Positions 45,466 to 48,668 of a stretch of 64,000 nucleotides of DNA are shown here, piece after piece. The stretch is from an uncultured Phascolarctobacterium sp. (lineage in GTDB: Bacteria; Bacillota; Negativicutes; Acidaminococcales; Acidaminococcaceae), in the NCBI GenBank assembly GCA_949285135.1, contig CASDXO010000006.1:1-64000 (forward strand), given 5' to 3'. Numbering within the stretch: the first letter of the stretch is position 1; each line of letters begins with the position of its first letter. The position numbers and the translations under genes are program-made. The notes beneath the pieces are model-generated. The model ran no database searches. It had not been told where the DNA came from and worked only from the letters and a program-made list of their open reading frames with translations.

Positions 45466-45508
45466 AAAAAGGATACTTCCTATATAGCATAGGAAGTATC
45501 CTTTTTTG
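45466..45508 (+). terminator. Strong terminator after the HxlR-type gene
   Basis: Eighteen-base perfect arms (45466-45483 and 45489-45506), then T run. The arms contain GGATACTT and AAGTATCC, which resemble the copA operator half-sites. Confidence 0.88.
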
Positions 45509-45565
45509 TTTTAAAATAAGTTTTTTAAGGTTAGTATGGTTTAACAAACTAAACAATGGCAAAAA

Positions 45566-45616
45566 TCCTAAATTTTAGGAAAAATGCTGTCTATATAATA
45601 TTACTAAAATTTAGTA
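45566..45616 (+). promoter_or_regulatory. Promoter with twin palindromic operators upstream of the AT-rich island
   Basis: Two 15-base perfect palindromes share the core CTAAA-N-TTTAG: TCCTAAATTTTAGGA (45566-45580) and TACTAAAATTTAGTA (45602-45616), 36 bases centre to centre. A perfect -10 TATAAT (45594-45599) lies between them. The first covers the expected -35 and the second the start point, so a dimeric repressor bound to either would block transcription. Confidence 0.7.
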
Positions 45617-45661
45617 TTATAAAAACAAGCCAAGGCTAGAAAATAAAAAGAGGGTGAAGAT

Positions 45662-46273
45662 ATGAAATTTAGTATAGAGGAAATTATCAACAGACATATA
45701 TATGCTAGAGGGAAGTTAAGAAAGGATATTGCTGAAGTTTTAGATACGGATGAAAAAACTTTATCATATCGTTTGAATAAAAATAATTCATTAAAAGCTA
45801 AGGAATTTATAAAGATTATTGAATATCTGGCTTTAAATTATTATAAGTTGTTGCGTTTACATACTGAAGATTATGATGGTGCATTTGGTATGAAAATGAT
45901 TAGGTTAGATGAAAATATGCACGAGAAAGCTAATAAGGAGGTTATGGTATATATTGAAAAACTTGTTGATGAAAAAAGGAATGATCCGTATGCAACGAAA
46001 GATATAGATAAAAAATTAAAGGCAGAATTTGGCTCAATGTCCTATGTAGTAGATGCATTGTTGCCATTAAATAATGAATATGGACAGGAATATAAAATTT
46101 ATATTCAAAAATCTGATAAAGGTGGGGCAAAAGAAGGAGAATGTTTTATATGGCCTCCTTATGGGGAATGTAAATATCAGGAAGGATATGAAATATATTT
46201 GTATGGTCAAAAACAAAAAGATTTCATGAAACAAATTATTAAAAATATAAAAAATGAGGAGAATAAAAAATGA
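45662..46273 (+). CDS. HTH-like protein, first gene of the AT-rich island
   Basis: A 203-residue protein. Residues 1 to about 55 look like a helix-turn-helix of the Xre/Cro type (GKLRKDIAEVLDTDEKTLSY, then a recognition-like helix). The rest is mixed, rich in Lys/Glu/Tyr, with no family I recognise. Base composition is far more AT-rich than the flanks and arginine is mostly AGA. GAGGGTGAAGAT precedes the ATG. The twin palindromes just upstream suggest it regulates its own operon. Its stop overlaps the next start (ATGA). Confidence 0.65.
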   Translation: MKFSIEEIINRHIYARGKLRKDIAEVLDTDEKTLSYRLNKNNSLKAKEFIKIIEYLALNYYKLLRLHTEDYDGAFGMKMIRLDENMHEKANKEVMVYIEKLVDEKRNDPYATKDIDKKLKAEFGSMSYVVDALLPLNNEYGQEYKIYIQKSDKGGAKEGECFIWPPYGECKYQEGYEIYLYGQKQKDFMKQIIKNIKNEENKK

Positions 46274-47367
46274 AAAAATTAACTAAAATTTATAAAGATT
46301 ATGGAAGTATTACTAAAGAAACAATTATGAAAGTATGGGATATGGACTATAGACAACTTGCTGAAAATTCAAGGGCAAGAAATAGAATTGCGGGTAAAAA
46401 TATTACAAAAGGTAGAGCACCACGTTGCAGAATGTATTCCCGAGCAGAGTATTATACTTTATTAGCTGAAATTAATATGGAAAAAGAAAAATATGAAAGT
46501 GCTTTAATAGATTTAAATACAGCACTAAATATTTATGATAATGATTATAGTTTTTTTGGTGATGATTGTTTACATATTGGAGCTGTACAGGAAAGAAAAA
46601 TAAGAGTTTGGAAAGAAAAATTTCCGAATAAACCTTATATGCCTGCAAATGAAGATATAATTGATAAAAATGTAATTTTATTTGACCGAGTTAATGTTTT
46701 AATGAAATTGGGAGAATATCAGGCTGCTATAGAAGATATTTCAGCAATTTTGACTTCTGAAGACTATGAAGATTTTAAGTTATATAATGAAGATGACATT
46801 ATTTTAAAAAGATATTTACTGGATGCCTATATTAAAACTGCCCAGTATGAAGAAGCATTAAAAGTATGTGATCAATTAGATAAACAAGTATCAGTTAATG
46901 AAGGTGAAAAATTAGATTTAGTGAAATCCATTATTTATGAAAAAATGGAAGATTATGAAGAAGCTTATGAATGTGTCGATTATATCTATTGTAAAGATGA
47001 TAGATATATTAAAAAATTAAAAGAAGAAAGAAAAAGTTTTTTAATAAACTATGTAGGAAATAATTTTGAAGCTATTATAAAAAAATATGAGAAAGAAAAT
47101 AATTTTGAAAAAGCGCAGAAAATCTTTAGTTTTTTACATAGCAGAATATTAGATGTTTTGTCGTCTGGTGAAACAACAGATAATGCTAAACTAAAAGACA
47201 AAGTACGTAAATTGCAACTTAGAGAAGCAAAAATGCTTGAAAATTGTGAAGCCTATGAAGAATTATTAGATTATTTGTATGATTTAAAAGAAGTAAATAA
47301 TATTCAAATACAGGATTATGCTGTTAAAAAAATAGCTGAAATAGAAGCTAAAGTTAAGGATGTTTAA
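46270..47367 (+). CDS. TPR-repeat protein, second gene of the AT-rich island
   Basis: A 365-residue soluble protein with several TPR-like helical pairs: YTLLAEINMEKEKYESALID (about residue 60), FDRVNVLMKLGEYQAAIEDI (about 137), LLDAYIKTAQYEEALKVCDQ (about 180) and LVKSIIYEKMEDYEEAYECV (about 217). TPR arrays usually mediate protein contacts. The N-terminal 55 residues are basic and unassigned. It is translationally coupled to the HTH gene. Function unknown. Confidence 0.7.
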   Translation: MKKLTKIYKDYGSITKETIMKVWDMDYRQLAENSRARNRIAGKNITKGRAPRCRMYSRAEYYTLLAEINMEKEKYESALIDLNTALNIYDNDYSFFGDDCLHIGAVQERKIRVWKEKFPNKPYMPANEDIIDKNVILFDRVNVLMKLGEYQAAIEDISAILTSEDYEDFKLYNEDDIILKRYLLDAYIKTAQYEEALKVCDQLDKQVSVNEGEKLDLVKSIIYEKMEDYEEAYECVDYIYCKDDRYIKKLKEERKSFLINYVGNNFEAIIKKYEKENNFEKAQKIFSFLHSRILDVLSSGETTDNAKLKDKVRKLQLREAKMLENCEAYEELLDYLYDLKEVNNIQIQDYAVKKIAEIEAKVKDV

Positions 47368-47430
47368 TTAATGCAGTAAATATTCAACTTTAATGTTGAG
47401 TATTTATAATAAACCTCTTTTCTATTTTCT

Positions 47431-47462
47431 TAATAGCGGTACTTTTAACAGTACCGCTATTA
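47431..47462. other. Hairpin just ahead of the third island gene
   Basis: Perfect arms TAATAGCGGTACT (47431-47443) and AGTACCGCTATTA (47450-47462), with no T run on either strand. It ends nine bases before the AAGGAGCG ribosome site. It may stabilise a processed mRNA end, control translation, or bind a protein. It is not a typical terminator. Confidence 0.6.
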
Positions 47463-47483
47463 AACTACAAGGAGCGTAAAATT

Positions 47484-48611
47484 ATGGATAGCAACAAAAT
47501 AGTTTTTTGTAATATTGCTTGGATGAAAGATTATGCTGGGGTAACAGATGATGATAAGCCCAGAAATGGGGGTAAATTTGTAGAAGTAAATGGTACTGCT
47601 TGTGAAAGCTTAAATTTTTTAATTTATAATAAATACTGCTATGGTTATGTAAAAACTACTGAAAACAGCATGAAAATTGAAAGAATTGATGCACAGGCTG
47701 AAGGAAAAGAGTATCTTGATGGAGCTACTGTGATATGGGTTGCTTCTCATGGGAGCGGTGAAAAGATTATTGGCTGGTATGAACATGCTACTGTATATAG
47801 AAAACAGAAAGAAATCATTGATGGTAATTTAGAAAGATATGAATCAGAAAGAGACTTATTGCGGTATCAATTTAAAGCAGAGTATAAAGATTGCTATTTA
47901 ATACGACCGGACAAAAGAACATTTTTGATTGATAGAGCTAAAAAAGTTGGGAAAGGTAAAGGTTTTGGACAATCTAATGTTTGGTATGCAGATTCTGAAT
48001 ATGCTAAAGAAAATATAGTGCCCAAAGTTTTGGAATATCTGGAAAATATAAGGGTAACTGATACAATAGAACTTTTTAATGAAAATATTTATAATGGCAA
48101 ATATTTATGTGATGAAGACCATGTAAATAGGTTTACTGGTATGAGTGTTGATATGTTGCTCAAGGAGATGGATAATTTAGAATATTCATTTGCAGAATAT
48201 TTAACTATTGCAGATATTGCAGTAGAAAAGGAATATTCTTTTAGAACATTAAAAGCCAGAGGAATAATATTAAGTGAGTTTCTTTATTATGATAAGGCAG
48301 AAGAAGATTTTGCTAAAGCTTTGGAGTTAGATAAAAATGATTTAGAACTTTTGGATTATCTATGGTATATTTATCTGATGAAAAAAGATAATAAAAAAGT
48401 TATAGAATTAGGCGAAAAAATATTATTATTAGCAGATACATCTTATAATGATAGATTGCAATATACCATGAAAGATATAATAAATGCTTATATAAATGAA
48501 GGCTATTATTCAAAAGCAAGAAATTTAATTCATGAGTATAGCAGTAAAAAATATAAAGATTCCGAAAGAGAAATAAATGAATGGGAAAATATATTAAATA
48601 AATTGTTATAA
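47484..48611 (+). CDS. Two-domain protein: unusual N-terminal domain plus TPR repeats, third gene of the AT-rich island
   Basis: A 375-residue protein. The first about 165 residues form a domain starting IVFCNIAWMKDYAGVTDDDK, with GGKFVE, CYGYVK and a core VIWVASHGSGEKIIGWYEHA before TVYR. I recall this pattern at the front of restriction-type HNH and other defence-associated proteins, where it looks PUA/EVE-like, but I cannot confirm that. The C-terminal half (about 225-375) has TPR-like repeats (LKARGIILSEFLYYDKAEED). Composition is very AT-rich. It has its own ribosome site after a 117-base gap. Confidence 0.65.
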   Translation: MDSNKIVFCNIAWMKDYAGVTDDDKPRNGGKFVEVNGTACESLNFLIYNKYCYGYVKTTENSMKIERIDAQAEGKEYLDGATVIWVASHGSGEKIIGWYEHATVYRKQKEIIDGNLERYESERDLLRYQFKAEYKDCYLIRPDKRTFLIDRAKKVGKGKGFGQSNVWYADSEYAKENIVPKVLEYLENIRVTDTIELFNENIYNGKYLCDEDHVNRFTGMSVDMLLKEMDNLEYSFAEYLTIADIAVEKEYSFRTLKARGIILSEFLYYDKAEEDFAKALELDKNDLELLDYLWYIYLMKKDNKKVIELGEKILLLADTSYNDRLQYTMKDIINAYINEGYYSKARNLIHEYSSKKYKDSEREINEWENILNKLL

Positions 48612-48628
48612 TTTTAATATTACTAAAT

Positions 48629-48662
48629 AAAAATCTCTTGTGTATATACACAAGAGATTTTT
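48629..48662. terminator. Bidirectional terminator between the AT-rich island and bioA
   Basis: A perfect palindrome of 16-base arms around a TA centre (48629-48662), with A and T runs at both ends. It separates convergent transcripts and marks the island's right edge. Confidence 0.85.
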
Positions 48663-48668
48663 ATTATA

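Follow-up and report, generated by a model that had tools for sequence, protein, structure and literature searches.

Gene Content and Boundaries of the Islet

The stretch of DNA analyzed here, referred to as the window, comprised 64,000 nucleotides from an uncultured Phascolarctobacterium sp. (contig CASDXO010000006.1, positions 1 to 64,000). Between hxlR and bioA it carries an islet of three genes, all on the forward strand. P1 (45662-46273) encodes a candidate HTH protein of 203 aa, P2 (46270-47367) a TPR protein of 365 aa, and P3 (47484-48611) a protein of 375 aa composed of an FCNIAWMK-type N-terminal domain (N-domain, about residues 1-190) and a TPR solenoid (about residues 211-375). An ATGA overlap joins P1 and P2, and each of the three genes has a good ribosome-binding site. 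Coding periodicity was evident in all three ORFs (GC by codon position 0.39-0.40, 0.23-0.27, and 0.13-0.21). The G+C content over positions 45540-48665 was 0.269 compared with a window mean of 0.44 and represented the window minimum for stretches of that length; GC3 was 0.17 versus 0.45, and AGA accounted for 68% of the arginine codons in the islet versus 16% in host genes. Terminator-like hairpins bound the islet on both sides. The left one (45466-45506) is an inverted repeat with an 18-bp stem, and the right one (48626-48665) faces bioA; two were observed where 0.8 were expected from shuffled sequences. An AT-rich, AGA-rich island of three genes, flanked by terminators and with its first two genes translationally coupled, had been predicted originally, and each of these features was recovered. 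The flanks had been described as a copper regulator and the biotin cluster. bioA indeed lies on one side, but the regulator on the other is better termed HxlR-like; it is located next to a P-type ATPase gene. Pfam and PADLOC scans detected no nuclease domain in P1, P2, or P3. No nuclease, helicase, or other effector is present within the islet, and no known defense gene was seen directly adjoining it.

The insertion site was compared with that of the closest sister genome, the one other genome of the genus used for this purpose (G031, locus L038). There, the convergent hxlR and bioA genes are separated by ~45 bp that hold a single, shared terminator-like hairpin. The HxlR-like proteins of the two genomes are 91% identical, and nucleotide similarity amounts to 82 and 86% on the two flanks and ends at the islet. 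Thus, the site is empty in the sister, which rules out a core locus and points to an insertion. Loss from the sister is the alternative; insertion in the present lineage is favored because the composition is foreign and P3 is absent from the other members of the family that were searched. No convincing direct repeats flanking the insertion were found. An origin of P1 or P2 from a phage or plasmid was considered and dismissed, because searches of phages, plasmids, and viral contigs matched neither protein. Composition, empty sister site, and sporadic distribution together agree with the proposed horizontal acquisition, which is the most likely history of the islet, and the counter-case of a fixed core locus with matching composition does not hold.

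P1, P2, and Candidate Regulatory Elements

The HTH and TPR content originally assigned to the islet was confirmed in part. The TPRs are clear in P2 (SHNi-TPR match in Pfam, 2e-8) and supported by a structural model in P3, whereas the HTH of P1 gave only a below-cut-off match to DUF739 (E = 0.008), and the predicted structure of P1 (pLDDT 35) was too poor for a usable model. Both proteins are orphans in the collections searched. No credible homologue of P1 was found among 379 genomes of the class and 398 of the phylum, and none of P2 among sampled sets of 300 and 398 genomes, respectively; plasmids, phages, and viral contigs likewise yielded none for either protein. Weak matches to P1 in G328 and G184, the latter in an unrelated urease-accessory/CrcB-like region, and to P2 in G659 were rejected as partial or generic. 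Among the Pfam models, P2 matched generic TPR ones and none of the Rap/Rgg type.

Upstream of P1, two CTAAAnTTTAG palindromes (45568-45578 and 45604-45614) lie on either side of a TATAAT box. This motif occurs twice in the window against 0.2 expected occurrences, and nowhere else in the 1.89-Mb genome does it form such a pair. The genome-wide uniqueness of this pair of candidate operators around the -10 box supports the suggestion that P1 regulates itself; P1 would most naturally be read as its own repressor.

The gap between P2 and P3 (47368-47483) contains two strong hairpins (stability z = -6.1); no terminator was called. These hairpins may separate the transcripts and uncouple P3 expression. 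The hairpin region (47377-47463) is devoid of U-tracts and is a possible attenuator or operator. Its distal part (47430-47463) is a 34-nt near-perfect palindrome with 17-nt arms, ~20 nt 5' of the P3 start codon.

The N-domain of P3

P3 has relatives at a minimum of 32 genome loci, on 22 viral contigs, and in 19 plasmid records. Within the class they were present in 19 of 380 genomes and in no other searched member of the host's taxonomic family. The region that they share corresponds to about residues 1-190 of P3 and bears the motif FCNIAWMK...GWYxNAxVYR...GQxNxWYA; in the alignment, conservation is concentrated in the blocks FCNIAWMK-Y-G and GWY--A and in an Arg-Gly-Trp region. The window P3 retains every invariant residue. 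No model of the N-domain exists in Pfam, NCBIfam, or PADLOC, and a profile search against PDB sequences returned nothing significant. The predicted structure of P3 reached a pLDDT of 86.7, with residues 217-375 matching TPR folds; the TPRs filled the results of the whole-protein fold search. Apart from TPR proteins, such searches gave nothing but partial matches of low specificity, and no known fold emerged from them for the N-domain. A relationship to EVE was not apparent, as no Pfam EVE match occurred among 24 family members and comparison of the N-domain with three EVE sequences gave an hhalign probability of 0.1%. In open-licence papers on EVE, DUF3883/NOV_C, SprT, and TPR, no description of this domain or of its pairing with a helicase was found.

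The N-domain is spread over Bacillota, Alphaproteobacteria, and prophages and is followed in these proteins by NOV_C, HNH, a helicase, a PD-(D/E)XK-like end, TPRs, or nothing. Fusion to NOV_C (= DUF3883) was seen in six viral-contig proteins, fusion to HNH in one viral-contig protein, and fusion to a ResIII helicase at L014. The alphaproteobacterial relatives have a VEVKP-containing C terminus that looks PD-(D/E)XK-like when the alignment is read by eye and has no Pfam match. Single-domain relatives adjoin helicases, one of which carries an HNH tail (L004). The N-domain keeps company typical of the recognition modules of restriction systems. The original guess of a nucleic-acid-sensing N terminus in P3 was a good one: the domain to which it led is widespread among restriction-like proteins and has no name, and its fusion to nucleases and linkage to helicases elsewhere support such a role. 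The NOV_C fusion proteins reside on prophage-type contigs (L101, L103, L105, L108, L117, and L121), some of them beside tail-like genes, and are probably phage cargo.

TPR-tailed Relatives and Their ResIII-type Helicases

In the phylogenetic tree, the window P3 fell into a seven-row TPR clade together with Selenomonad copies (support 99/96), nested in a 13-row clade (support 96/88). Its terminal branch is long (0.8), and the protein has thus diverged. Full-length identity with TPR-tailed relatives from Selenomonas, Schwartzia, Anaerobium, and Tissierellia was 32-36%.

A ResIII-type helicase is encoded upstream of TPR-tailed relatives at seven loci (L002, L006, L007/L008, L010, L011, L088, and L093), counted over the TPR-tailed loci with readable flanks. 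It directly precedes the P3-like gene, except in L011, where it lies one gene further, and is a contig-edge fragment in some cases; complete helicases have 870-915 aa. Three helicases that were scanned (L002, L007, and L109, the last adjoining a single-domain copy) showed weak C-terminal matches to SprT/YgjP-like metallopeptidases. The helicase is lacking at the TPR-tailed loci L009, L012, and L095, as well as in the window, and its genome encodes no orthologue, the best match being generic (26% identity, E = 1e-5). The window P3 is therefore a relative of the helicase-linked TPR-tailed family and not a complete system.

Among Selenomonads, the order small protein, ResIII helicase, P3-like TPR protein recurs as an operon (L007:4746-9095, L011:3356-9101, L088:3491-7862, and L093:2982-7072); L093 encodes the first two as a single fusion protein. 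This arrangement looks like an undescribed helicase-centered system. P1 was tried as an orthologue of the small gene preceding the helicases and rejected (hhalign probability 0.4%). At L095:2825-5887, the P3-like TPR protein adjoins a GT41 (glycosyltransferase family 41)-like protein with TPRs.

Discussion

The reading that we prefer, at a probability of roughly 45%, is that the islet is horizontally acquired cargo in which P3 derives from a DNA-targeting protein of the restriction type, stands without the helicase, and follows an HTH-TPR gene pair that probably represses itself. The P3 family shares its N-domain with predicted restriction-type proteins, and the closest relatives of P3 are TPR-tailed proteins that partner an SF2 helicase of the ResIII type. 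The N-domain would recognize DNA, perhaps modified DNA, and the TPR tail would offer a docking surface for an effector. Because the helicase is missing from the genome, P3 would have to work without it, either by docking another partner, for which P2, likewise a TPR protein, is the nearest candidate, or by acting as a binder or sensor. P1 would repress its own operon with P2 through the paired operators, providing regulated expression of the module. Since P1 and P2 are orphans, any tie to P3 rests on one locus.

P3 might instead be what remains of a helicase system after loss of the helicase, sharing its site with P1-P2 as unrelated orphan cargo, the parts not acting jointly. The closest relatives of P3 are indeed helicase partners, a helicase of that kind is missing here, and neither P1 nor P2 was found with P3 elsewhere in the collections searched. 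A remnant is nonetheless doubtful, given that P3 is full length with its invariant residues kept, that codon periodicity is intact throughout the islet, and that three other TPR-tailed copies likewise have no neighboring helicase, so that solo life may be normal for such proteins. The opposite view, a true three-gene switch with P1 as repressor, P2 as scaffold, and P3 as sensor, perhaps for abortive infection or as a toxin-antitoxin-like unit, and confined to unsampled lineages, would account for the common orientation, composition, and insertion of the genes, for the coupling of P1 and P2, and for the uniqueness of the operator pair. Recurrent linkage of the three genes in unrelated genomes had been set beforehand as the test of a compact three-gene system. 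The trio had no second instance in any genome, plasmid, or viral contig searched, and P3 homologues occur singly, without P1 or P2, which the original prediction had itself named as speaking against a system. We thus consider such a switch unlikely.

P1 and P2 could also form an independent signaling pair, functionally like a split Rgg/PlcR/Rap regulator, with P3 as a separate gene. Adjacent, coupled HTH and TPR genes and the ~117 nt with two hairpins that set P3 apart would suit such a pair; no signal peptide gene was seen, however, and P2 resembles generic TPR models rather than those of Rap/Rgg-type regulators, which makes this reading quite improbable. A bolder version of the reading that we prefer would treat the FCNIAWMK-type domain as an undescribed nucleic-acid recognition module of many nuclease, helicase, and TPR defense proteins. 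The islet would then be a nuclease- and helicase-free form in which TPR-TPR contacts link recognition to the HTH repressor, and sensing would alter transcription instead of cutting DNA. We regard this as a long shot.

Compared with the helicase-linked relatives, the window P3 has the same N-domain and TPR tail and belongs to the same clade, but theirs follow a ResIII helicase, and the small gene in front of that helicase is not detectably homologous to P1. The EVE-HNH protein VcaM4I, a modification-dependent (type IV) restriction endonuclease, is a worked example of a plan combining recognition and nuclease domains (PMC7897488). An N-terminal recognition-like domain with a C-terminal nuclease recurs in relatives of P3 (HNH and NOV_C), whereas P3 itself has TPRs where the nuclease would be, and its N-domain matches EVE neither in Pfam nor in profile comparison. 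EVE also partners SWI2/SNF2 helicase-nuclease systems (PMC7641849); the main text of that paper does not mention TPR, NOV_C, DUF3883, or SprT. As in the P3 family, a stand-alone or fused sensor domain lies beside a restriction-type helicase in those systems, but the sensor belongs to a different domain family than the P3 N-domain, as far as tested.

Although the islet represents just one sporadic insertion, it is valuable for drawing attention to a widespread, conserved domain of ~190 residues that has no name. Naming and testing the N-domain would make many unannotated defense loci recognizable; from its TPR-tailed branch one would learn how recognition passes to a separate helicase. Elsewhere in the family, a conserved clostridial block (L024:558-3805 and L025:1127-6795) comprises a helicase, a single-domain P3 relative, an AlkZ-related protein, and further genes; it may be another defense or repair cassette.
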